From assembly GCA_017397835.1 (NCBI GenBank), contig JAFQHV010000006.1:1-40167 (forward strand): 40,167 nucleotides of DNA, read 5' to 3'. Both the position numbers and the translations under genes were made by a program. Positions 10,832 through 40,167 of this stretch are shown piece by piece; the stretch's first letter is position 1; each line of letters opens with the position of its first letter. This DNA comes from Oscillospiraceae bacterium (GTDB taxonomy: Bacteria > Bacillota > Clostridia > Oscillospirales > Oscillospiraceae). The notes beneath the pieces are model-generated. The model was not told where the DNA came from, did not search any database, and was given only the letters and a program-made list of their open reading frames with translations.

Positions 10832-12163
10832 ATGGCGTATACAAAAGAGGATGTCATCCGCATTGTGAAGGAAGAGGGCATCGAGTTTATCCGCATGCAG
10901 TTCGTGGATATTTTCGGTCAGCTGAAGAACGTGGTCATCACCGGCTCTCAAATCGAGAAGGCCGTGAACAACGAGATCGCCATCGACGGTTCCTCCATCC
11001 AGGGCTTCGTGCGAATCAACGAGTCCGATCAATATCTGTACCCCGACCTGAACAGCTTTGTGGAATTGCCCTGGCAGCCGGAGTACGGCAAGGTGGCCCG
11101 GCTGGTGTGCGATGTGCATAACCCCGACGGCACGCCCTTTGTGGGCGACCCCCGCGGTGTGCTGCACCGGGTCATCCAGCGCGCCAGGGACATGGGCTTT
11201 GACACCTTCAACATCGGCCCGGAGATGGAGTTTTTCATGTTCGAGACCGACGAGCGGGGCAACCCCACCACCCACACCAACGACGAGGTGAGCTACTTCG
11301 ACCTTGGCCCTCTGGACCGGGGCGAGCCGGCCCGCCGGGAGATGTGCATGGTGCTGGAGAAGATGGGCTTTGAGATCGAGGCCGTCCACCACGAGGTGGC
11401 CGCCGGTCAGCACGAGATCGGCTTCAAGTATGCCGAGGCGCTGGACGGCGCGGACAAGGTCATGACCTTCAAGCTGGTGGCCAAGACCATCGCGCAGAAG
11501 CACGGGCTCCACGCCACCTTTATGCCCAAGCCTATCTACGGTGTGGCGGGCAACGGTATGCATATGAATATGTCCCTGTTCAAGAACGGACAGAACGTGT
11601 TTTATGACCCCGACGACCCCCGTCAGCTGTCCCAGACCGCCTATCACTTCATCGCCGGCCTGCTGGCCCACGTCAAGGGCTTTACCGCCATCACCAATCC
11701 GCTGGTCAACTCCTACAAGCGACTGGTGCCCGGCTACGAGGCACCCTGCTACAAGGCGTGGTCCGCCTCCAACCGTTCCGCCCTGATCCGCATCCCCGCC
11801 GCCCGGGGCAAGGCCACCCGTGTGGAGCTGCGCAATCCCGACCCCTCCTGCAACCCCTATCTGGCCGTTGCGGTGTGTTTGGCCGCCGGTCTGGACGGCA
11901 TTGCCAACAAGCTGACCCCGCCCCCGGAAATTACCGAGAACATCTTTGAGATGGACAAGGACACCCGGATCGCCCACCACATCGACAGTCTGCCCGGCAG
12001 CCTGCGCGAGGCGCTGGACGAGCTGGAAAAGGACCAACTGATCCTGGACGTGCTGGGTGAGCACGTGGCCGAGAACTACATCGAGGGCAAGCGCAAGGAG
12101 TGGAACGAGTACCGCACCCACGTGACCTCCTGGGAGACCGAAAAGTACATTACCGTGTATTAA
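10832..12163 (+). CDS. glnA: Glutamine synthetase, type I
   Basis: Makes glutamine from glutamate, ammonia and ATP. At 443 residues it fits the shorter GSI-alpha type of Gram-positive bacteria, which is normally not adenylylated. Visible signatures are the beta-grasp domain with DGSSIQGF (about 51-58), the PEMEFFMF metal-binding strand, [10 protein letters not shown] (ATP/glutamate site), [13 protein letters not shown], and [10 protein letters not shown] with the catalytic Arg cluster. ATG 10832 follows an AAAAGGGG site that is not a strong match. dapL starts 12 bases after the stop, so the two are cotranscribed. Placement near a glutamate-fermentation cluster may be coincidental, but both act on the same glutamate pool. 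Confidence 0.97.
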
Positions 12164-15516: not shown

Positions 15517-15573
15517 ACTTTTTGCTAACATACCAAAAGAAAAAAATATGCGCCTGCGGTACACTGTTAACGA

Positions 15574-15592
15574 TAGAATGCGCAAGTGCGCA
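15574..15592 (+). promoter_or_regulatory. Putative -10 and TGCGCA tandem sites before gctA
   Basis: TAGAAT (15574-15579) could be a -10 box, without a good -35, as often seen at activator-dependent promoters. Directly after it lie two copies of the palindrome TGCGCA separated by AG (15579-15584 and 15587-15592). A half-similar ATGCGCC lies at 15548. These may be binding sites for the divergent AraC protein. Confidence 0.4.
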
Positions 15593-15617
15593 AAAATATT
15601 GCTTGGAGGTATGTAAC

Positions 15618-16721
15618 ATGGATAAAGTGTATTCCCTGCATGACGCGGTAGCCAAGTTTGTGGAAGACGGCGATTGCATCAGCTTCGGCGGCTTCACCAC
15701 CAACCGCAAGCCCTATGCGGCTGTGAACGAGATCCTGCGTCAGGGTCAGAAGGACTTTACGGTTTGGGCCGGCGCCGCCGGCGGTGACTGGGATATGATG
15801 ATCGGCGAGGGCCGCGTGAAGGCGTATATCAACTGCTACACCGCCAACTCCGGCTACACCAACGTGTCCCGCCGCTTCCGCGCCGCCATCGAGGCGGGCA
15901 AGCTGACCTATGAGGACTACTCTCAGGACGTGGTCATGCTGCAACTGCACGCCGCCTCCCTGGGTCTGCCCTTCCTGCCCGTGCGGCTGATGCAGGGTTC
16001 CGGCTTGATGAAGTACTGGGGCATCAGCGAGGAGCAGCGCAAGACGCTGGAAAAGGTGGATGACCTGAAGTGCGTTGAGATCGAAAACCCCTTCAAGCCC
16101 GGCGAGAAGGTGGTTGCCGTTCCCGTACCCCGACTGGACACCGCCATCATCCACGTGCAGCAGGCATCTCCCGACGGCACCTGTATCATCATGGGTGACG
16201 AGTTCCACGACGTGGACATCGCCATCGCCGCCCGCAAGGTCATCGTCACCTGCGACGAGCTGGTCAGCAACGAGTTTATCCGCCGCGACCCCACTCTGAC
16301 CCGTATCTTCGGCGAGTGTGTCAGCGCAGTGGTCCATTGCCCCTACGGTGCCTGGCCCACCCAGTGCTACGGCTATTACGACAACGACCCCAATGCGCTG
16401 CGTGAGTACGATAAGGCCTCCAAGTACCTGGATGCCGAGGATGCCGTGGCCCAGTTGGCCAAGGCTGCGGTCAAGGCCGAGAAGGCCGCTGAGAAGGCAC
16501 CCGGCGACGAGAAGTTGGCCGAGGCGGCTGCCCGTGCCCGCAAGGCGGCCGACGATGCCGCCGCCGGCGTTGCCATCCCCGAGACCTTCAAGGATTACCT
16601 GAACAAGTGGGTCTACTCCGTCACCGATCACAACGATATGCTCAACAAGATCGGCGGTCACCGGCTGATGAGCCTGCGCAACGCACCCCACCTGGGCTAT
16701 TCCAACACCCACATCAAATAA
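15618..16721 (+). CDS. gctA: Glutaconate CoA-transferase subunit A, with an Ala/Lys-rich insert
   Basis: With GctB it transfers CoA from acetyl-CoA (or glutaconyl-CoA) to (R)-2-hydroxyglutarate, the entry step of the hydroxyglutarate pathway. It has 367 residues against about 320 in Acidaminococcus. The CoA-transferase fold is evident from CISFGGFTTNRKPYA, VWAGAAGGDWDMMIGEGRV and GTCIIMGDEFHDVDIAIAAR. The excess length is a low-complexity, charged and alanine-rich insertion at about residues 273-319 (codons 16434-16574), after REYDKASKYL and before the conserved FKDYLNKWVYSV. ATG 15618 has TTGGAGGT upstream. gctB follows after 18 bases. It is the first gene of the operon and lies divergent from the AraC regulator. 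Confidence 0.95.
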   Translation: MDKVYSLHDAVAKFVEDGDCISFGGFTTNRKPYAAVNEILRQGQKDFTVWAGAAGGDWDMMIGEGRVKAYINCYTANSGYTNVSRRFRAAIEAGKLTYEDYSQDVVMLQLHAASLGLPFLPVRLMQGSGLMKYWGISEEQRKTLEKVDDLKCVEIENPFKPGEKVVAVPVPRLDTAIIHVQQASPDGTCIIMGDEFHDVDIAIAARKVIVTCDELVSNEFIRRDPTLTRIFGECVSAVVHCPYGAWPTQCYGYYDNDPNALREYDKASKYLDAEDAVAQLAKAAVKAEKAAEKAPGDEKLAEAAARARKAADDAAAGVAIPETFKDYLNKWVYSVTDHNDMLNKIGGHRLMSLRNAPHLGYSNTHIK

Positions 16722-16739
16722 GCAGGGAGGAAGAGAGAA

Positions 16740-17543
16740 ATGGCTGATTACACCAAGTACACCAAACAGGAGATGCAGGCTTACGCCATCGCCAAGAGCA
16801 TCAAGGAAAATCAAATTGTCATCGTGGGCACCGGCCTGCCCCTCATCGGTGCATCCCTTGCCAAGGCCGCTATTTGCCCCAGCTGCCATCCCATTGTGGA
16901 GTCCGGTCTGATGGACTGCGACCCCGTGGAGGTGCCCCGCTCCGTGGGTGACGACCGCTTTATGGCCCACTGCGCCGTTCAGTGGCCCAACATCCGCTTC
17001 ATCGGCTTTGAGGCCAACGAGTGGCTGCACAACGAGGACCGCCTGATCGCCTTTATCGGCGGCGCGCAGATCGACCCCTACGGCAACGTGAACTCCACCT
17101 GCATTTACGGCAGCGGCGACTATGTCAAGCCCCAGACCCGCTTCACCGGCTCCGGCGGCGCCAACGGCATTGCCACCTACTGCAACACTGTTATCATGAT
17201 GCAGCATCAGAAGCGCCGCTTCATGGAGAAGATCGACTACATCACCTCCTGCGGCTGGATGGACGGACCCGGCGGCCGTGAGCGTGCCGGTCTGCCCGGC
17301 AACCGCGGCCCCCAGATGGTGGTCACCGATCTGGGCATCATGAAGTTTGACGAAGAAACCAAGCGTATGTATCTAGCCTACTACTATCCGTTCTCCAGCC
17401 CCGAGATGGTGCAGGAGAACACCGGCTTTGAGATCGACGTGTCCCGTGCCGAGCTGATGGAGGGTCCCCCTCCCGAGATCATCAAGCTCATCCGTGAGCA
17501 GATCGATCCGGGTCAGGCCTTTATTAAGGTCCCCAAGGAATGA
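16740..17543 (+). CDS. gctB: Glutaconate CoA-transferase subunit B
   Basis: Second subunit of the CoA-transferase, carrying the glutamate that forms the covalent CoA-thioester intermediate. It has 267 residues, the normal length. Glu54 in HPIVESGLMD matches the catalytic Glu54 of the Acidaminococcus enzyme. Other family strings are IVIVGTGLPLIGASLAKA, FIGGAQIDPYGNVNST and GSGGANGIATYC. ATG 16740 lies after GGGAGGAAGAGAG. A 63-base gap with a small inverted repeat (GAGATAT/ATATCTC, near 17550-17566) separates it from gcdA. Confidence 0.96.
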   Translation: MADYTKYTKQEMQAYAIAKSIKENQIVIVGTGLPLIGASLAKAAICPSCHPIVESGLMDCDPVEVPRSVGDDRFMAHCAVQWPNIRFIGFEANEWLHNEDRLIAFIGGAQIDPYGNVNSTCIYGSGDYVKPQTRFTGSGGANGIATYCNTVIMMQHQKRRFMEKIDYITSCGWMDGPGGRERAGLPGNRGPQMVVTDLGIMKFDEETKRMYLAYYYPFSSPEMVQENTGFEIDVSRAELMEGPPPEIIKLIREQIDPGQAFIKVPKE

Positions 17544-17606
17544 GATAAGAGATATTTCATATCTCATATCTATCGCGATTTGAAAAAGAAACAGGAGGAA
17601 CTTATT

Positions 17607-19373
17607 ATGGGTTTCTATTCCATGCCCGGCTATTTCCAAAATATGCCCGTGGTTGGCAAGGCGGTCCGCCCCAACCCCGAAAACGCCGAAGAGCTGAAGG
17701 CGGTTGAGGCCGAGATCGACGAGAAGATCGCCCAGTGCCTTGCCAACGGCAAGCCCGACGAGGCGATGAACGAAAAGGGGCAGCTCACCGCCATGCAGCG
17801 CATCGCCCTGCTGGTGGACGAGGGGACCTGGTGCCCTCTGAACACCCTGTATAACCCCGAGGGGAACAAGACCGGCACCACCTCCATCGTCAAGGGTTTG
17901 GGCCGTGTCAACGGCAAGTGGTGCTGCATCATTGCCTCCGACAACAAAAAGCACGCCGGCACCTGGGTGCCCGGTCAGGCCGATGACCTGATCCGCGGCA
18001 GTGACACCGCCAAGCGCCTGCGCATTCCCCTTGTTTACCTGCTGGAATGTGCCGGCGTGGAGCTGGATAAGCAGGAGAAGGTGTACCCCAACCGCCGCGG
18101 CGGCGGTACGCCCTTCTACCGCAATTCCGAGCTGAACCAGCTGGGCGTGCCCGTTATCGTGGGCATCCACGGCACCAACCCCGCCGGCGGCGGCTACCAC
18201 TCCATTTCTCCCACCATTCTGGTGGCCCACGAGAAGGCCAACATGGCCGTGGGCGGCGCCGGTATCGTGGGCGGCATGAACCCCAAGCCCTACGTGGATA
18301 TGGAGGCCGCTTTGGCCCAGATCGAAGCCACCCGTGGCCTGCGCGCCGATCCTCCCGGCTCCGTGTCCATCCACTACGGTCAGACCGGCTTCTGGCGTGA
18401 AGTCTACGCCGAGCAGGAGGGTGTCATCGAGGGCATCAAGAAGTACATCGGTATGCTGCCCAACTACGATTTGGAGTTCTTCCGCGTGGCCGAGCCCGCC
18501 AACCCCGCCGGTGACCCCGAAGAGCTGTACGACATCGTGCTGAACAACAAGAACCGCCCCTACGATATGTATTCCGTCATCGCCCATCTGGTGGACGGCG
18601 GCGAGCTGATGGAGTTCAAGAAAGGCTACGGCCCCGAGATCATCACCGGTATCGCCAAGGTGGCCGGTCTGCCCGTGGGTATCGTGGCCAACCAGCAGGG
18701 TGTGTTCCCCAACTATCCCGAGTATAAGATGGCCAAGTACGGTCAGGCTATGGGTGCCGGCGGCAAGCTCTATCGCCAGGGCCTGATCAAGATGAGCGAG
18801 TTCGTCACCATGTGCGCCCGCGACCGCCTGCCCATCATCTGGGTGCAGGATACCACCGGTATCGACGTGGGTGACGATGCCGAGGTGGCCGAGCTGCTGG
18901 GTCTGGGCCAGTCCCTGATCTACTCCATCCAGTCCAGCAAGCTGCCCATGATGGAGATCACCCTGCGCCACGGCACCGCCGCCGCCCACTACGTTCTGGG
19001 CGGTCCTCAGGGCAACGACAACAATGCCTTCTCTCTGGGCTGCGCTGCCACCGAGATCAACGTCATGAACGGCAAGACCGCCGCCAACGCCATGTACACC
19101 GGCCGCCTTGCCAAAGAGCAGAAGGCGGGCAACGACCTGCAGCCCGTCATCGACAAGATGAACGAGATGATCGAGGACTACGACCTGAAGTCCAAGCCCC
19201 TCTACTGCGCTCAGGCCGGTCTGGTGGACGAAGTGGTCAAGATGCCCCTCATGCGCAACTACATGATCGCCTTCACCGAGTCCTGCTATCAGAACAGCGT
19301 GTCCGTCTGCCCCGTGCATCAGATGCTGCTGCCCCGGGTGTGTCGTGACTACGACAATCTGAACAACAAGTAA
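17607..19373 (+). CDS. gcdA: Glutaconyl-CoA decarboxylase alpha subunit (carboxyltransferase)
   Basis: Catalyses transfer of the carboxyl group from glutaconyl-CoA to biotin on GcdC, giving crotonyl-CoA. It has 588 residues, almost exactly the Acidaminococcus length (587). Two crotonase-fold carboxyltransferase domains are visible: the N-half with KGLGRVNGKWCCIIASDNKK and GGGGYHSISPT-type oxyanion loops (NPAGGGYHSISP), and the C-half with GLPVGIVANQQGVFPNYPEY, WVQDTTGIDVGDDAE and HYVLGGPQGND. It begins MGFYSMPGYFQNMPVVGKA. ATG 17607 has AGGAGGA upstream. It is unusual among decarboxylase genes in lying among gct and hgd genes and apart from gcdB/C/D, as in Acidaminococcus. Confidence 0.96.
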   Translation: MGFYSMPGYFQNMPVVGKAVRPNPENAEELKAVEAEIDEKIAQCLANGKPDEAMNEKGQLTAMQRIALLVDEGTWCPLNTLYNPEGNKTGTTSIVKGLGRVNGKWCCIIASDNKKHAGTWVPGQADDLIRGSDTAKRLRIPLVYLLECAGVELDKQEKVYPNRRGGGTPFYRNSELNQLGVPVIVGIHGTNPAGGGYHSISPTILVAHEKANMAVGGAGIVGGMNPKPYVDMEAALAQIEATRGLRADPPGSVSIHYGQTGFWREVYAEQEGVIEGIKKYIGMLPNYDLEFFRVAEPANPAGDPEELYDIVLNNKNRPYDMYSVIAHLVDGGELMEFKKGYGPEIITGIAKVAGLPVGIVANQQGVFPNYPEYKMAKYGQAMGAGGKLYRQGLIKMSEFVTMCARDRLPIIWVQDTTGIDVGDDAEVAELLGLGQSLIYSIQSSKLPMMEITLRHGTAAAHYVLGGPQGNDNNAFSLGCAATEINVMNGKTAANAMYTGRLAKEQKAGNDLQPVIDKMNEMIEDYDLKSKPLYCAQAGLVDEVVKMPLMRNYMIAFTESCYQNSVSVCPVHQMLLPRVCRDYDNLNNK

Positions 19374-19408
19374 TTTCTTGCGCTCCGGCGCAATAACGGA
19401 GAAACACT

Positions 19409-20194
19409 ATGGAAACCATTTATACACTGGGTATTGATATCGGTTCCACCGCTTCCAAGTGCGTGATGCTGGCCGACGGCAAAGAAATTGTCGCCAAGTC
19501 CCTCATCGCCGTGGGTGCCGGCACCAGTGGTCCTCAGCGGGCCATCGACGCCGTGCTTGAGGCGGCAGGGAAGACCCGCGAGCAGATTGCCTTCGTGCTG
19601 GCCACCGGCTACGGCCGCAACTCGCTGGAGGGGTTTGCCGACCACCAGATGAGCGAGCTGAGCTGCCATGCCCGCGGCGCTGCCTTCCTGTTTCCGCAGG
19701 TGCGCACCGTCGTAGACATCGGCGGACAGGACGTGAAGATCCTGCGGGTGGAAAACGGTGCTATGACCAACTTCCAGATGAATGATAAGTGCGCTGCCGG
19801 CACGGGCCGATTTTTGGACGTGATGGCCCGGGTGCTGGAGGTGGACGTGAACGATCTGGGAACGCTGGGCGCCAAATCCACCAAGGAAGTGGCCATCAGC
19901 TCCACCTGCACCGTTTTCGCCGAGAGTGAGGTCATCAGCCAGCTGGCTCAGGGTACCGATAAGTGCGATATCATCAACGGCATCCACAAGTCCGTGGCCG
20001 GCCGCGTGGCGGGCCTTGCCCACCGCGTGGGCGTGCAGGATGACGTGGTGATGACCGGCGGTGTGGCGCAGAACTCCGGCGTGGTGAATGCCCTGCAGGA
20101 GCAGCTGGGACACACCATCCACACCTCGCCCCTGACCCAGTATGTAGGCGCGTTGGGCGCCGCCCTGTTTGCTTACAAAAAGTGCAATAAATAA
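19409..20194 (+). CDS. hgdC: (R)-2-hydroxyglutaryl-CoA dehydratase activator
   Basis: ATP-dependent archerase: a homodimer with one [4Fe-4S] cluster at the interface that injects a single high-energy electron into HgdAB. It has 261 residues (family about 260). The ASKHA nucleotide-binding fold shows GIDIGSTASKCVML (phosphate 1), VVDIGGQDVK (phosphate 2) and VVMTGGVAQNSGVV. The cluster-binding cysteines are Cys128 in NDKCAAGTGRF and Cys167 in ISSTCTVF, equivalent to Cys127 and Cys166 of Acidaminococcus. ATG 19409 follows GGAGAAAC. It precedes hgdA by 20 bases, so activator and target are made together. The protein is expected to be very oxygen-sensitive. Confidence 0.97.
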   Translation: METIYTLGIDIGSTASKCVMLADGKEIVAKSLIAVGAGTSGPQRAIDAVLEAAGKTREQIAFVLATGYGRNSLEGFADHQMSELSCHARGAAFLFPQVRTVVDIGGQDVKILRVENGAMTNFQMNDKCAAGTGRFLDVMARVLEVDVNDLGTLGAKSTKEVAISSTCTVFAESEVISQLAQGTDKCDIINGIHKSVAGRVAGLAHRVGVQDDVVMTGGVAQNSGVVNALQEQLGHTIHTSPLTQYVGALGAALFAYKKCNK

Positions 20195-20214
20195 TCAGTA
20201 GGGAGGAAACTGTA

Positions 20215-21651
20215 ATGGCTAAAGAAGTTAGCCCCGGCGTTCTGGCGCTGCGCAAGGTGGTGGACGACGTCCACGCTGATGCCCGCAAGGCCAAGGCCGA
20301 AGGTAAGCTGGTAGGCTGGTCCTCGTCCAAGTTCCCCTGTGAGCTGGCTGCCGCATTCGATCTGGACGTCATGTATCCCGAGAACCAGGCCGCCGGTATC
20401 GCCGCCAACCGCGACGGTGAGATCATGTGTCAGGCAGCCGAGGATCTGGGCTTTGACAACGACATCTGCGGTTACGCCCGCATCAGCCTGGCCTATGCCG
20501 CCGGCAAGCGTGCGGCCCGCAAGTTTGACCCGGAGACCCTGGAGTATATCATCGACCCCAACTCCGGAAAACCCCTGAAGGACGAAAACGGCAAAGTTGT
20601 GATGGGGGAGGACGGCAAGCCCGTCAAGGACCCCAAGACCCAGCAGCCGTATACCGTACTTGTGGACATCCACGAGATCGAGGCCATGCCCGACGGACCC
20701 CTGAAGGACAAGTATTGGGAGTCTATCAAGCCCTACCGCCAGATGCGCATTCCCCAGCCCGACTTTTTGCTGTGCTGCAACAACATCTGCAACTGCATGA
20801 CCAAGTGGTATGAGAACATCGCCCGTATGTGCAACATCCCCCTGATCATGATCGACATCCCCTACAACAACACCGTGGAGGTCCACGATTCCAACGTGGC
20901 CTACGTCCGTGCTCAGTTCGACGCTGCCATCAAGCAGCTGGAGGAACTGACCGGCAAGAAGTTTGACGAGAAGAAGTTCGAGCAGGCGTGCGCCAACGCC
21001 AACCGCACCGCCAGTGCCTGGCTGCGTGTGTGCGACTACCTGCAGTACAAGCCCGCGCCCTACTCCGGCTTCGACCTGTTCAACCACATGGCCGACATCG
21101 TGACCGCCCGCGCCAAGGTGCAGGCGGCCGAGGCCTTTGAGCTGCTGGAGAAGGATCTGGAGCAGGCCATCAAGGAAGGCACCACCACCACGCCCTTCCC
21201 CGAGAAGTACCGCGTCATGTTCGAGGGCATTCCCTGCTGGCCCAAGCTGCCTGACCTGTTCAAGCCCCTGAAGGCCAACGGTGTCAACGTCACCGCCGTG
21301 GTGTATGCCCCCGCCTTCGGTTTCGTCTATGAGGATTTGGACGGTATGGCCCGGGCCTACTACAAGGCGCCCAACTCCGTTTGTATCGAGCAGGGTGTTG
21401 CCTGGCGTGAGGGTATCTGCAAGGACAACAAGGTGGACGGCGTGCTGGTCCACTACAACCGCTCCTGCAAGCCCTGGTCCGGCTACATGGCCGAGATGCA
21501 GCGCCGCTTTACCGCCGATCTGGGTATTCCCTGCGCCGGCTTCGACGGCGACCAGGCCGACCCCCGCAACTTCAATGCCGCCCAGTATGAGACCCGCGTT
21601 CAGGGCCTGGTGGAAGCCATGGAACAGAACGCCGCCAATAAGGAGGGTTAA
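20215..21651 (+). CDS. hgdA: (R)-2-hydroxyglutaryl-CoA dehydratase alpha subunit
   Basis: With HgdB, eliminates water from 2-hydroxyglutaryl-CoA through ketyl radicals, giving (E)-glutaconyl-CoA. It has 478 residues, matching the Acidaminococcus subunit. It belongs to the HGD-D/BcrC-like family of [4Fe-4S] proteins. Candidate cluster cysteines lie in LLCCNNICNCMTKW (about 186-197), and the segment VHYNRSCKPWSGYMAEMQRR near 417-436 is a family hallmark. It opens with MAKEVSPGVLALRKVVDDVH. ATG 20215 has GGGAGGAAAC upstream. A lysine- and aspartate-rich stretch at about 110-145 (EDGKPVKDPKTQQPYT) appears to be an inserted loop. The stop is separated from hgdB by three bases. Confidence 0.96.
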   Translation: MAKEVSPGVLALRKVVDDVHADARKAKAEGKLVGWSSSKFPCELAAAFDLDVMYPENQAAGIAANRDGEIMCQAAEDLGFDNDICGYARISLAYAAGKRAARKFDPETLEYIIDPNSGKPLKDENGKVVMGEDGKPVKDPKTQQPYTVLVDIHEIEAMPDGPLKDKYWESIKPYRQMRIPQPDFLLCCNNICNCMTKWYENIARMCNIPLIMIDIPYNNTVEVHDSNVAYVRAQFDAAIKQLEELTGKKFDEKKFEQACANANRTASAWLRVCDYLQYKPAPYSGFDLFNHMADIVTARAKVQAAEAFELLEKDLEQAIKEGTTTTPFPEKYRVMFEGIPCWPKLPDLFKPLKANGVNVTAVVYAPAFGFVYEDLDGMARAYYKAPNSVCIEQGVAWREGICKDNKVDGVLVHYNRSCKPWSGYMAEMQRRFTADLGIPCAGFDGDQADPRNFNAAQYETRVQGLVEAMEQNAANKEG

Positions 21652-21654
21652 ACG

Positions 21655-22791
21655 ATGAGCATTGAACTGATGATGAAGCAATTTCAGGACATCGCCAATA
21701 ACCCCAACAAGCAGCTGGCCGACTTCAAGGCCGCCGGCAAGAAGGTCATTGGTGTCCTGCCGTACTACGCCCCCGAGGAACTGGTCTACGCCGCCGGTAT
21801 GGTGCCCATGGGTATGTGGGGAAGCAATAAAAAGACCATCTCCCGGGCCAAGGAGTACTGCGCCACCTTCTACTGCACCATCGCGCAGCTTGCGCTGGAG
21901 ATGCTGCTGGACGGCACCATGGACCAGCTGGACGGTCTGATCACCCCCACCATCTGCGACACCCTGCGCCCCATGAGTCAGAACTTCCGCGTGGCCATCG
22001 GCGACAAGATCCCCACCATCTTCCTGGCTCACCCCCAGAACCGCTTTGCCGACTGGGGCCTGAAGTTCTGCATGGACCAGTACAACGATGTGCGCAAGAT
22101 GCTGGACAAGATCTCCGGCCACGAAATGACCGACGAGGATATCCGTAAAGCGATCAAGGTTTACAACGCTTCCCGCGCAGCCCGCCGCGAGTTCGTCAAG
22201 CTGGCCAACGAGCATTGCGACGTGGTCACGCCCACCCTGCGCTCCGCCGTGCTGAAGGCAAGCTGGTTCATGCTCAAGGATGAGTACACGGAAAAGCTCA
22301 CCGAACTGAATGAGGAACTCAAGAAGCTGCCCGCCGCCAACTGGAAGGGTGTGAAAGTGGTCACCTCCGGTATCGTGTGCGACAACCCCAAGCTGCTGGC
22401 CATCTTTGAGGAGAATCACATCGCCATCGCCGCCGACGACGTGGCCCACGAGTCCCGCGCCTTCCGCACTGATGCGGCTGAGGAGGGCGACCCCATGCTG
22501 GCCCTGGCCAAGCAGTTTGCCAACATCGACTACGACGTGCTGCTGTACGATCCCGCATCCTCCTCCAACCGCCGCGGCGAGTTCGTGGCCAATTTGGTGA
22601 AGGAGTCCGGCGCCCAGGGCCTGATCCTCTTTATGCAGCAGTTCTGCGACCCCGAGGAGATGGAGTACCCCTACCTGAAGAAGGCGCTGGACGAGGCCGG
22701 CATTCCCCACATCAAGCTGGGCGTGGACCAGCAGATGCGCGACTTCGGTCAGGCCAGCACCGCCATTCAGGCCTTTGCCGACGTGCTGTAA
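21655..22791 (+). CDS. hgdB: (R)-2-hydroxyglutaryl-CoA dehydratase beta subunit
   Basis: Partner of HgdA in the radical dehydratase, carrying the second [4Fe-4S] cluster. It has 378 residues (Acidaminococcus 379). Family features include GVLPYYAPEELVYAAGMVPM (about 31-50), then WGSNKKTISRAKEYCATFYC and TPTICDTLRPMSQNF with cysteines expected to be cluster ligands. The C-terminal half has LILFMQQFCDPEEMEYPYLK and IPHIKLGVDQQMRDFGQAST. ATG 21655 follows AAGGAGGGTTAAACG. A consensus promoter begins just 5 bases beyond its stop codon, marking a boundary inside the operon. Confidence 0.96.
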   Translation: MSIELMMKQFQDIANNPNKQLADFKAAGKKVIGVLPYYAPEELVYAAGMVPMGMWGSNKKTISRAKEYCATFYCTIAQLALEMLLDGTMDQLDGLITPTICDTLRPMSQNFRVAIGDKIPTIFLAHPQNRFADWGLKFCMDQYNDVRKMLDKISGHEMTDEDIRKAIKVYNASRAARREFVKLANEHCDVVTPTLRSAVLKASWFMLKDEYTEKLTELNEELKKLPAANWKGVKVVTSGIVCDNPKLLAIFEENHIAIAADDVAHESRAFRTDAAEEGDPMLALAKQFANIDYDVLLYDPASSSNRRGEFVANLVKESGAQGLILFMQQFCDPEEMEYPYLKKALDEAGIPHIKLGVDQQMRDFGQASTAIQAFADVL

Positions 22792-22795
22792 ACGA

Positions 22796-22824
22796 TTGAC
22801 AAGCCGGGGACCGGAGGATATAAT
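22796..22824 (+). promoter_or_regulatory. Perfect sigma-A promoter inside the gct-hgd-gcd operon
   Basis: TTGACA (22796-22801), 17-base spacer, TATAAT (22819-22824), both perfect matches at ideal spacing. It starts five bases after the hgdB stop and would give a leader of about 72 bases before gcdC. It allows independent transcription of gcdC-gcdD-gcdB. Confidence 0.85.
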
Positions 22825-22902
22825 GCTTTCGGTTTTTGGATATACTGTCTTATTACGTAAAATCGGTCCTTGGACCAATATATAAAGAAGGAGATCATGA
22901 TT

Positions 22903-23304
22903 ATGAACTACGTTATCACCGTTAACGGCAAGACCTACTCCGTCAGCGTGGAGAAAGAGTCTGCCGCCAAGGCGGCTCCCAAGGCTGCCGCGGCTCCTGT
23001 GGCCGCTCCCGTCGCCGCGCCTGCCGCTGCTCCTGTGGCTGCCGCTCCCGCTGCTGCGCCTGCCGCCGCCCCTGCCGCTGTGGCCGCCGGCGAGACCGCT
23101 GTGAAGAGCCCCATGCCCGGCAGCGTGATGAAGGTGGAGTGCTCCGTGGGTCAGTCCGTTAACGCCGGCGACGTGCTGGTGATTCTGGAGGCCATGAAGA
23201 TGGAGATCGAGGTCGCCGCCCCCTGCGCCGGAACGGTCAAGGCCATCTCCGCCGCCCAGGGCGCTGCCGTCAACACCGATGACCTGCTGGTCACGCTGGG
23301 TTGA
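22903..23304 (+). CDS. gcdC: Glutaconyl-CoA decarboxylase biotin carrier subunit
   Basis: Carries carboxybiotin from GcdA to the membrane subunit GcdB. It has 133 residues: an N-terminal domain MNYVITVNGKTYSVSVEKE, a flexible alanine-proline linker at about 23-63 built from repeats such as AAPVAAP and AAPAAAP, and a biotinyl domain whose lysine is Lys99 in EAMKMEIE. The ATG at 22903 lies nine bases after AAGGAG and is preferred over the ATG at 22897, which is too close to it. The linker length is typical for sodium-pump decarboxylases. It is followed by gcdD after 17 bases. First gene after the internal promoter. Confidence 0.95.
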   Translation: MNYVITVNGKTYSVSVEKESAAKAAPKAAAAPVAAPVAAPAAAPVAAAPAAAPAAAPAAVAAGETAVKSPMPGSVMKVECSVGQSVNAGDVLVILEAMKMEIEVAAPCAGTVKAISAAQGAAVNTDDLLVTLG

Positions 23305-23321
23305 TTCCGGGAGGTAGCTGA

Positions 23322-23636
23322 ATGTATTCTGGATTGACCTTTGAGCAGCTTGGCGGTTGGCCGGGTGCTCTGATGATCGCCGTGTGCGGCTTTGTGGTGG
23401 TGTTCCTGGTGCTGGCTGTGCTGGCGCTGATGATCACCGTCATTTCCAAGGTGGTGGCCGCTATCGAGCGCAAGCTGCCCGCCAAGGCCGCCGCGCCCGC
23501 AGCCAAGCCCGCTGCCGCCCCCGCACCCAAGCAGGAGGATGACGAGGAGATCATTGCCGTCATCACCGCCGCCGTCGCCGCCGAGATGGGGACCACTCCC
23601 GATCAGACCCGGCTGACCAGCGTGATTCGATACTGA
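23322..23636 (+). CDS. gcdD: Glutaconyl-CoA decarboxylase delta subunit (OadG-like)
   Basis: Small membrane anchor that assembles the sodium-pump complex. It has 104 residues: one transmembrane helix at about 16-42 (ALMIAVCGFVVVFLVLAVLA...), a charged segment, an alanine-proline stretch (about 52-68) and a C-terminal cytoplasmic helix with EEIIAVITAAVAAEMG. This is the layout of OadG/MmdD/GcdD proteins. ATG 23322 has GGGAGGTAG upstream. It sits between the biotin carrier and the membrane carboxylyase genes, as expected for this complex. Confidence 0.92.
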   Translation: MYSGLTFEQLGGWPGALMIAVCGFVVVFLVLAVLALMITVISKVVAAIERKLPAKAAAPAAKPAAAPAPKQEDDEEIIAVITAAVAAEMGTTPDQTRLTSVIRY

Positions 23637-23654
23637 TAGGGAGGAGACGGAACA

Positions 23655-24839
23655 ATGAACGTAATTCAGTTTTTTACGGACGTAATGTCCCGGATCCTCG
23701 GTGATTCCGGCTTTGCCAGCATCTTCAGCGGCAGCTGGAAGGAAGCGGTCATGATCCTGGTTGCCTGCGTGCTGCTGTATATGGGCATCGGCAAGAAGTT
23801 CGAGCCGCTGCTGCTGGTTCCTATCGCCTTCGGTATGCTGTTGGCCAACCTGCCCCTGACCGGCCTGATGGCTGCCCCGGCTGAAGGCGCAAGCCCCGGC
23901 TTTATGTGGGTGCTGTATCAGGGCGTGGGCCACGCCATCTATCCCTCCATCATCTTCCTTGGTATCGGCGCCATGACGGACTTTGGCCCTCTGCTGGCCA
24001 ACCCCAAGTCCATGCTGCTGGGTGCCGCTGCCCAAATGGGCATCTTTGCCGCGTTCCTGATGGCTTTGGGCCTTGGCCCTGTCACCGGCGGTGCGATTTT
24101 CTTCACCCCTGCTGAGGCTGCCGCCATCGGCGTTATCGGCGGCGCGGACGGCCCCACCGCCATTCTGACGGCGTCCAAGCTGTCCCCCCAGATCCTGCCC
24201 GCTATTGCCATTGCGGCCTACTCCTATATGGCGCTGATCCCCATGATCCAGCCCCCGCTGATGAAGCTGCTGACCACCAAGAAGATGCGCGCGGTCAAGA
24301 TGACTCAGCTGCGCACCGTGTCCAAGACCGAGAAGATCGTGTTCCCCATCGCGGTGGCCACCTTCGTCATCCTGCTCATCCCCGATACCGCGCCCCTGAT
24401 CGGTATGCTCATGCTGGGCAACCTGTTCCGTGAGTGCGGCGTGACCGAGCGTCTGTCCGACACCGCCCAGAACGCCCTGATCAACATCGTTACCATCCCC
24501 CTGGGCCTGTCCGTGGGCTTCAAGGCGACCGGTGAGGAGTTCCTGGACCCCAAGACCCTGGGTATCATCGCCCTGGGCCTGATTGCCTTCCTGCTGTCCA
24601 CCGCCGGTGGTCTGCTGCTGGGTGATTTGATGTACTTCCTGTCCAAGGGCAAGATCAACCCCCTGATCGGCTCCGCCGGTGTGTCTGCCGTGCCTATGGC
24701 CGCCCGCGTGGCCCAGTCTGTGGGTCAGAAGGAGAACCCCTCCAACTTCCTGCTGATGCACGCCATGGGTCCCAACGTGGCCGGTGTCATCGGCTCCGCC
24801 GTTGCCGCAGGCTTTATGATCAAGGTCTTCGGCGGCTGA
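23655..24839 (+). CDS. gcdB: Glutaconyl-CoA decarboxylase beta subunit (Na+-pumping carboxybiotin decarboxylase)
   Basis: Integral membrane subunit that decarboxylates carboxybiotin on GcdC and exports sodium ions. It has 394 residues with about nine to eleven hydrophobic segments. The highly conserved GGADGPTAI-type motif (Asp in [14 protein letters not shown], about 162-175) bears the aspartate linked to sodium binding. Further family strings are [27 protein letters not shown] and [16 protein letters not shown] 23655 has GGGAGGAGACGG upstream. Last gene of the cluster, followed by a strong terminator. Close homologs in oxaloacetate and methylmalonyl-CoA decarboxylases exist; context settles the substrate as glutaconyl-CoA. 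Confidence 0.96.
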
Positions 24840-38568: not shown

Positions 38569-38626
38569 GGGAGTTACTACGCGCCATCCGCAGGGATGAT
38601 GGATGCGCGCGGTCACTCCCTTTTTT
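38569..38626 (+). promoter_or_regulatory. Attenuator-like terminator in the carA leader
   Basis: GGGAGT (38569-38574) pairs with ACTCCC (38615-38620) around an inner GCGC/CATCC-GGATG/GCGC stem, followed by six Ts (38621-38626): a terminator before the gene. CATCC (38585-38589) can alternatively pair with GGATG at 38594-38598 or 38601-38605, giving competing folds. I see no convincing PyrR-binding loop, so the effector (pyrimidines, arginine or other) is unknown. Confidence 0.65.
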
Positions 38627-38667: not shown

Positions 38668-39750
38668 ATGAAAGCGACTTTGATTCTGGAAAACGGCAGC
38701 GTGTTTACCGGAACCAGCATCGGCAGCACGGAAGAAAAGATCTGTGAGCTGGTGTTCAATACCTCCATGACCGGTTATCAGGAACTGTTGACCGACCCGG
38801 CCTACGCCGGGCAGGGCGTGGTCATGTCTTATCCTCTGATCGGCAACTACGGTGTCAATGAGGAGGACGTGGAGTCCGACCGCACTTGGGTGGAGGCTAT
38901 CGTGGTTCGCCACCTGTCCGATCGTGGCAGCAACTTCCGCTGCCAGGGTGATCTGAATACCTATCTGAAGCAGAACAATATTGCAGGTGTGCAGGGTGTT
39001 GACACCCGTGCCCTGACGAGAATACTCCGCAACCAGGGGAGCATGATGGCTATGCTCACCTGTGCGGAGCATTTTAATGTCGCTCAGGTCATGGACAAGC
39101 TCCGCACCCATCGGGTGGCGAACAAGGTGGCCGAGGTCACCTGCAGCGAGGCCAAGGTCATTCCCGCCGAGGGTGAGCCGCGCTGCCACGCCGCCGTGCT
39201 GGACTGCGGTGTGCCCAACAGCATCATCGCCTGCCTGACTGCCCGCGGCTGCAAGGTGACCGTCCTGCCCGCCGCCACCGATGCCGAGGACATCCTGTCC
39301 GGCGGCTATGACGGCGTGGTGCTGTCTCCCGGCCCCGGCGACCCCGCCGAGAATACTGACATCATTGCTCAGGTGAAGAAACTGTACGACAGCAGCCTGC
39401 CCCTGTTCGGCTTCGGTCTGGGCCACCAGCTTCTGGCCCTTGCCGTGGGCGGCAAGACCGAGAAGCTGCCCTACGGTCACCGCGGCGGCAACATCCCCGT
39501 GCGCGACCTGGAGAAGGGCAAGGTGTTCATCACCGCCCAGAATCACGGCTACGCCGTGGTGGAGGGCAGTGTGGATGCCAACACCGCCGAGGTCAGCCAC
39601 GTCAACGTCAACGACGGCAGCGTGGAGGGTCTGAAGTACAAGCGCGCCAACTGCTTCACCATGCAGTTCAACCCTGAGGGCAACACAGGCCCCATGGAAG
39701 TGAAGTACGTCTTTGACCGCATCGTTGAGATTATGGGAGGTGCCAAGTAA
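38668..39750 (+). CDS. carA: Carbamoyl-phosphate synthase small subunit, glutaminase residues lost
   Basis: Normally hydrolyses glutamine and feeds ammonia to CarB for pyrimidine and arginine synthesis. It has 360 residues, normal length. The N-terminal CPSase_sm domain is clear ([37 protein letters not shown]), as is the class I amidotransferase fold ([20 protein letters not shown]). Yet the nucleophile elbow reads LFGFGLGHQ, with Gly250 where GICLGHQ carries Cys, and the triad His is Asn335 in MQFNPEG; only Glu337 remains. The frame is intact and codon use normal. ATG 38668 has AAAGGCGGG upstream; an upstream in-frame ATG (38641) is less likely. carB overlaps the stop by one base (TAATG). 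It should bind CarB but not release ammonia from glutamine. Confidence 0.95.
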
Positions 39751-40167
39751 TGCCCAGATACGCTGACGTTAAGAAAGTTCTTGTTCTTGGCTCCGGCCCC
39801 ATCGTCATTGGCCAGGCCGCCGAGTTTGACTATGCCGGCACTCAGGCCTGCCGTGCCCTGAAGGAGGAGGGACTGGAAGTCGTTCTGGTCAACTCCAACC
39901 CCGCCACCATCATGACCGACAAGGACATTGCCGACCATGTGTATATTGAGCCCCTGAATATCCCCTCCATCACCAAGATCATCGAGAAGGAGCGCCCCGA
40001 TGCCCTTCTGCCCAATCTGGGTGGCCAGACCGGCCTGAACATGGGCATGGCCCTGTATGAAAACGGTACGCTGGAAAAGTACGGCATCCGCCTGCTGGGT
40101 ACCAGCCCCGAGTCCATCCACAAGGCCGAGGACCGTCAGGGCTTCAAGGATTGTATGGAGTCCATCG
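39750..40167 (+). CDS. carB: Carbamoyl-phosphate synthase large subunit (partial, 5' part)
   Basis: Makes carbamoyl phosphate from bicarbonate, ammonia and two ATP. About 139 residues are visible before the right edge; the family is about 1,070 long. The start [20 protein letters not shown] is typical, followed by [51 protein letters not shown] and [15 protein letters not shown], the pre-ATP-grasp domain of the first synthetase half. ATG 39750 shares one base with the carA stop; GGGAGG lies about nine bases upstream within carA, so translation is coupled. Because CarA looks inactive as a glutaminase, this subunit would depend on free ammonia. Confidence 0.97.

Follow-up and report, generated by a model that had tools for sequence, protein, structure and literature searches.

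Carbamoyl-phosphate synthase (CPS) catalyses the step at which pyrimidine and arginine synthesis begins. Glutamine hydrolysis by the E. coli CPS requires Cys269 and His353 (PMC6245113). The same source, a 2018 review, takes the donor to be glutamine in the E. coli enzyme and, by extension, in all bacterial CPS, and states that very high and likely unphysiological levels of ammonia are needed for the E. coli enzyme to react with it. A second account files bacterial CPS under CPS II and allows ammonia to come either from outside or from glutaminase (PMC6022934). Human CPS1 is described as having Ser294 at the place of the Cys and as using external ammonia, for which another path has been proposed, and frog CPS1 is reported in the same paper to keep the triad yet to be unable to use glutamine (PMC4655335). 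Human CPS1 also needs N-acetylglutamate. Many members of NadE, a bacterial amidotransferase family, are described as ammonia-only (PMC3376133).

The locus described here lies near the end of a 40,167 nt stretch of DNA from an Oscillospiraceae genome (the window). Its two subunits, their gene order and their domains are those of E. coli CarAB (CPS II), but the glutaminase residues have been lost. As in human CPS1, which takes ammonia from outside (PMC4655335), the glutaminase-like domain is kept and the catalytic Cys is gone; unlike human CPS1, which is a single chain, the window system has a separate carA and carB. The Cys is replaced by Ser in human CPS1 and by Gly or Ala here, where the His is mostly gone as well. 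The tunnel residue Gly293 is given as Gln in human CPS1 (PMC4655335) and is still Gly in the window (motif GGN). Like NadE, the locus belongs to the bacterial amidotransferases, but single-domain NadE has no glutaminase domain, a state held to be ancestral, and the domain here is kept and was disabled later. The comparison with vertebrate CPS I made in the initial annotation of this DNA is apt in mechanism (Cys lost, domain kept), with the use of ammonia being what we infer for the bacterial enzyme. From its sequence, the enzyme would work like CPS I without being a CPS I member, because it has two chains and Gly instead of Ser. Among the open-licence PMC papers listed, none turned up that describes a bacterial CarA lacking the Cys, which is weak evidence of absence.

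The carA gene and its active site

The carA gene (38668..39750, + strand, as are all window features given below) encodes a CPS small subunit of 360 aa with a dead glutaminase site. There is an alternative in-frame ATG upstream at 38596 that would give a 384-aa reading. The N-terminal CPSase_sm_chain domain (PF00988, residues 5-130, 38680..39057) and the class I GATase domain (PF00117, residues 177-354, 39196..39729) both match, and the protein scores 416.5 bits on TIGR01368, for which the cut-off is 307.35. The two domains, the score over the cut-off and the adjacent carB place the protein within CarA. At the places of the Cys-His-Glu triad of glutamine-hydrolysing CPS (CPS II), in contrast, are Gly250, Asn335 and Glu337. 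A limit of annotation is exposed here: a CarA with a dead site is still labelled glutamine-hydrolysing, and because the window protein passes the cut-off of the glutamine-hydrolysing model, metabolic models built on labels of this kind would get the nitrogen donor wrong.

Residue equivalences were taken from an alignment to E. coli K-12 CarA. Gly250 (codon GGT, 39415..39417) is at the place of the nucleophile Cys269, in the elbow motif GFGLGHQ, and Asn335 (codon AAC, 39670..39672) is at the place of the triad residue His353, in the motif QFNPEG. Both substitutions had been reported in the initial annotation and the alignment bears them out. Glu337 (39676..39678) corresponds to Glu355, so the triad Glu is retained. 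Further replacements are Ala45 (38800..38802) for Ser47, which is Ser in 141/141 intact family rows with a letter there; Pro183 (39214..39216) for Lys202 and Pro221 (39328..39330) for Asn240, which are Lys and Asn, respectively, in 142/142 intact family rows; and Ile276 (39493..39495) for His295, two residues past the Gly aligned to the tunnel residue Gly293. A search for a second carA with an intact site, as had been proposed, found none in the same genome (G000; 1.84 Mb, rated 96% complete), where there is a single CarA match.

Distribution within the genus

A CarA match is present in 55 of the 64 genomes of the genus, and position 250 could be read in 54 of them (the remaining match is a fragment that ends before this position). 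The residue is Cys in 47 genomes and Gly in seven (G000, G308, G310, G311, G312, G313 and G351). Sequencing error, which the initial annotation had already thought unlikely, and chance are both rejected as the source of Gly250, since seven genomes carry the same Gly. The other six Gly CarAs are 67-92% identical to the window protein and the Gly codon among the seven is of two kinds, GGT and GGC. The CarA of isolate SIG489 (SVLO01000006.1) is 92% identical and has the same Gly; that of JAFQBN010000021.1, from goat cecum, is 90% identical and has the same Gly with the His retained. The CarA gene of G308 is identical to that of SIG489, and the gene of G310 to that of RGIG1669.

The triad His is absent from five of the seven Gly genomes, where the position is Asn (G000) or Asp (G308, G311, G312 and G313), and is still present in G310 and G351. 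In 46 of the 47 Cys genomes the residue is His; in G340 the position falls beyond the contig. Because G310 and G351 keep the His despite the Gly, the Cys went before the His in this clade. The two active-site losses of the initial annotation are both real, but the Cys was lost before the His and, as described below, these genomes also differ in other amidotransferase steps. Within the clade the His may have disappeared on several occasions, or disappeared a single time and later come back.

Six of the Gly genomes form one clade (100/100) in a 31-row tree, and in the 157-row tree described below G351 groups with them (SH-aLRT 99). The 31-row tree pairs G000 with G310 (95/55), although G308 is nearer to G000 by dS; pairwise dS among the genomes sharing the Gly reaches about 1. 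The Gly genomes are 1.5-1.9 Mb in size and others of the genus are up to 4.5 Mb. Some Cys genomes are also 1.6-1.8 Mb, but these are rated 65-86% complete. One of the nine genus genomes in which no CarA match was found, G309 (1.7 Mb, 87% complete), is like the Gly genomes in that it has a short GMP synthase and no CTP synthase match. This relative may have lost CarA altogether, or the gene may fall in a gap.

Distribution in the family and beyond

CarA was found in 202 of 300 sampled genomes of the family and had no match in the other 98. The initial annotation had proposed aligning CarA across the family at the two active-site positions; 158 loci from 155 genomes (G304, G104 and G252 contribute two each) were read: 30 from the 300-genome family search, 28 from the genus search and 100 further loci, with the second CarA matches of G043 and G072 left out. 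The nucleophile position is Cys in 143, Gly in 13 and Ala in two, so that 15/158 loci are without the Cys, a frequency that is not unbiased because the loci read are mostly the better-scoring matches. None of the 15 Cys-less CarA matches contains an in-frame stop.

A 157-row tree was built with the active-site columns removed and without L297, which is a fragment. The 15 Cys-less rows fall into eight groups on this tree, which requires at least eight changes, and the starred branches alone force eight. The tree comes from a quick search with SH-aLRT support alone, and it has long end branches, several of them on Cys-less rows. Loss of the glutaminase seems to be recurrent, with about eight lineages in the family to judge from the tree. 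The initial annotation was right in proposing a bacterial loss like that of CPS I, but the loss recurs within the family and is not a single separate case. Outside the family, one pattern scan of genome contigs gave Cys in 77/77 loci and His in the 76/76 that cover its position; the scan returned 80 loci, three of which are genus members, and many of the remaining 77 are from Marinobacter. If the reading given below is true, a bacterial counterpart of vertebrate CPS I has arisen several times in one family. These lineages would then be natural replicates of glutaminase loss, from which it could be seen which residues go, in what order, and what role the leftover subunit has.

Residues lost and selection on carA

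Across the 142 intact family rows, 67 columns are invariant (a single exception being allowed), and 38 of these are unchanged in all eight Cys-less lineages. The columns lost most often are 250 (in eight lineages), 183 and 335 (seven each), 221 (six) and 45 (five), which correspond to E. coli Cys269, Lys202, His353, Asn240 and Ser47; Cys269 necessarily comes first, as it was the criterion for choosing the rows. As read from the alignment, the invariant columns that most lineages have lost belong to the glutaminase site. Mutational work has reportedly addressed Ser47 and Lys202 as members of the amidotransferase catalytic array.

End branches are longer in the Cys-less rows (p = 0.004, with one row per lineage compared to the 142 intact rows). 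For six within-clade pairs, dN/dS is 0.19-0.27 for the GATase domain and 0.08-0.16 for the N-domain, in comparison with 0.02-0.145 for the GATase domain in eight outgroup pairs. In pairs with G351 the GATase value rises to 0.39-0.46, suggesting that constraint on this domain is loosening. Three pairs that include Cys-less rows from other lineages give 0.17-0.29. The dN/dS of carA with a dead site stays well below 1.

Taken together, the data suggest, with a probability that we put at about 0.83, that this CarA is a pseudo-glutaminase that partners CarB in an enzyme using free ammonia, as vertebrate CPS I does. Since the working glutaminase residues are lost, free ammonia is the most likely substrate. 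CarA would still fold and bind CarB, serving it in a structural or allosteric role; free ammonia from amino-acid fermentation would enter CarB and react with carboxyphosphate; and the carbamoyl phosphate produced would feed ATCase- and OTCase-type steps. In the window's clade, loss of the Cys would have come first, with the His and further residues decaying afterwards. Being strained, the nucleophile elbow accommodates Gly well once no side chain is needed there. Gly may perhaps be favoured at position 250, either because it relieves the strained elbow or because it opens the pocket. That the glutaminase was lost while CarA persisted as the partner to CarB, as the initial annotation had suggested, is well supported by the seven genomes of the genus, the roughly eight lineages, the dN/dS well below 1, the CarB that is intact as read and the lack of a second carA in the same genome. 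The main argument against the use of ammonia is that the E. coli enzyme is described as needing very high levels, unless the enzyme of this clade binds ammonia better or its host lives in much of it. Other points that weigh against this reading are the His retained by G310 and G351, the second CarA with Cys and His in G104, the loosening constraint in pairs with G351, a CarB with no sign of ammonia adaptation, and the relatives in which CarA had no match.

Alternatively, CPS could be decaying in small genomes, with CarA on its way to becoming a pseudogene and arginine and pyrimidines partly scavenged. The small size of the Gly genomes, their lack of a CTP synthase match and the raised dN/dS of the GATase domain are in keeping with decay. 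So is the lack of a CarA match in G309 and in 98/300 family genomes, which suggests that CarA is dispensable for some relatives. However, 15/15 Cys-less matches are without an internal stop, the N-domain of CarA and CarB are conserved, genes of the ATCase/OTCase type persist, and the Gly is common to genomes whose pairwise dS reaches about 1. This makes decay of the whole enzyme improbable.

Nitrogen supply and other amidotransferases

The window carries glnA, a type I glutamine synthetase (10832..12163), so the organism can still make glutamine; a glutamine synthetase was found in 8/8 genomes searched. Genes for a CoA-transferase pair, a carboxyl transferase, a dehydratase activase, 2-hydroxyglutaryl-CoA dehydratase-like subunits, a biotin carrier and a Na+-pump decarboxylase beta subunit lie at 15522..24839. 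Judging from these gene types the cluster is likely to be for glutamate fermentation, which would release ammonia and be a source of it. The glutamate-fermenting, ammonia-rich anaerobe of the initial annotation is plausible from the dehydratase-like, CoA-transferase, activase and Na+-pump decarboxylase genes. The ATCase/OTCase-type family PF02729, within which the two enzymes are not distinguished, was searched in seven small genomes and has two matches in each of six and one in G313.

CTP synthase (PF06418) had no match in 7/7 Gly genomes and none in 4/47 Cys genomes (Fisher p = 2e-6), although the seven Gly genomes are one clade and the association counts as about one event. Overall, 16/64 genus genomes are without a match, among them G303, a Cys genome rated 98% complete. 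Also among the 16 are eight small genomes (G000, G308, G309, G310, G311, G312, G313 and G351), in which CTP may depend on cytidine salvage.

The genus has two kinds of GMP synthase. The full-length kind has GICYGCQ in 30/30 copies read; of 27 copies of the short kind, 19 have a cut-down GATase remnant without GICYGCQ and eight have none. The short enzyme (L170-L175, L240, L249-L268) accompanies the full-length one in many genomes of the genus. Among the Gly genomes, G000, G308, G312 and G313 have the short kind only, G310 and G351 have both, and none was matched in G311. The full-length GMP synthase of G310 shares 81-85% identity with its counterparts elsewhere in the genus and lies on a contig with a GC content of 0.50 (12 kb read), against 0.54-0.59 at its other loci. 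It may be native or foreign. PurL keeps GICNGFQ and HGEG in 9/9 genomes (seven small, two others), and HisH of G000 is intact (GICLGMQ, QFHPEK). A general loss of glutaminases is rejected on these grounds; at the level of sequence motifs, the shift covers some amidotransferase steps but not all.

An intact glutaminase elsewhere in the genome could in principle feed ammonia to CarB in trans, in which case the enzyme would still depend on glutamine. Candidates are present in G000, where HisH has its site and a PuuD-like class I amidotransferase (G000:C6:92688) has GICQGIQ and QWHPEQ. However, CarA retains the domains that would fill the glutaminase seat, and its gene has a dN/dS well below 1; there is no link between the PuuD-like gene, which was read in G000 only, and CarB; and G000 has only three PF00117 matches. 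Supply in trans is thus very improbable.

A wider form of the free-ammonia reading is that gut Oscillospiraceae have repeatedly and adaptively swapped glutamine for ammonia in pyrimidine and arginine synthesis, with Gly or Ala leaving the nucleophile pocket empty and making the former glutamine site an entrance by which external ammonia gets to the tunnel, and that the window's clade has also lost CTP synthase and mostly lost glutamine-dependent GMP synthase. We regard this as speculative and rather doubtful.

CarB and the end of the contig

The start codon of carB shares one base (39750) with the carA stop codon, and the first 139 codons of carB (39750..40167) run off the end of the window, which is also the end of the contig. 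Contig C20 of the same assembly has most of a carB and overlaps the window by 264 bases at 91% identity; because the identity is only 91%, C20 is a strain variant or a second copy and not a clean continuation. Both contigs break inside carB (C41 at window positions 39750-40167, C20 at L116), and these breaks, with the overlap at 91%, suggest strain mixing. An assembly or binning artefact, which the fragmented assembly might invite, is hardly credible as the origin of the dead site given that the Gly is found in seven genomes with two codons and in CarAs 67-92% identical to that of the window.

The CarB comparison used five rows of the clade (G000 through contig C20, G308, G310, G312 and G313) along with seven from the outgroup, of which one is partial. 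Clade rows, outgroup rows and E. coli all have Cys, Ala and Ala at the three gate positions (Cys232, Ala251 and Ala314 in E. coli). At the remaining CarB positions checked, the clade agrees with the outgroups except at 955, where the outgroups vary too. Clade and outgroups jointly differ from E. coli at several of the listed positions, mostly in the C-terminal part. Five positions (3, 273, 336, 343 and 539, E. coli numbering) are constant in the outgroup and differ from it wherever a clade row has a letter. They were considered as a compensating change in CarB and rejected, as none is at the three gate positions. No mark of adaptation to ammonia was seen in CarB among the clade rows, the outgroup rows and E. 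coli, and CarB looks intact as far as it could be read.

A CarB of about 1345 aa with a C-terminal diaminopimelate epimerase domain is encoded at L342:9678-13715 and at L339:4990-9024, in each case adjoining a dead CarA; the CarB-DapF fusion, seen with these two dead CarA, was considered as part of the trait and not retained. G104 has two CPS (L339 and L340), one being the dead CarA with the CarB-DapF fusion and the other having a CarA that keeps both the Cys and the His, so the dead copy in G104 could be a spare. The CarB beside the intact CarA of G104 neighbours purF-, pyrG- and glmS-like genes, as judged from the starts of their sequences.
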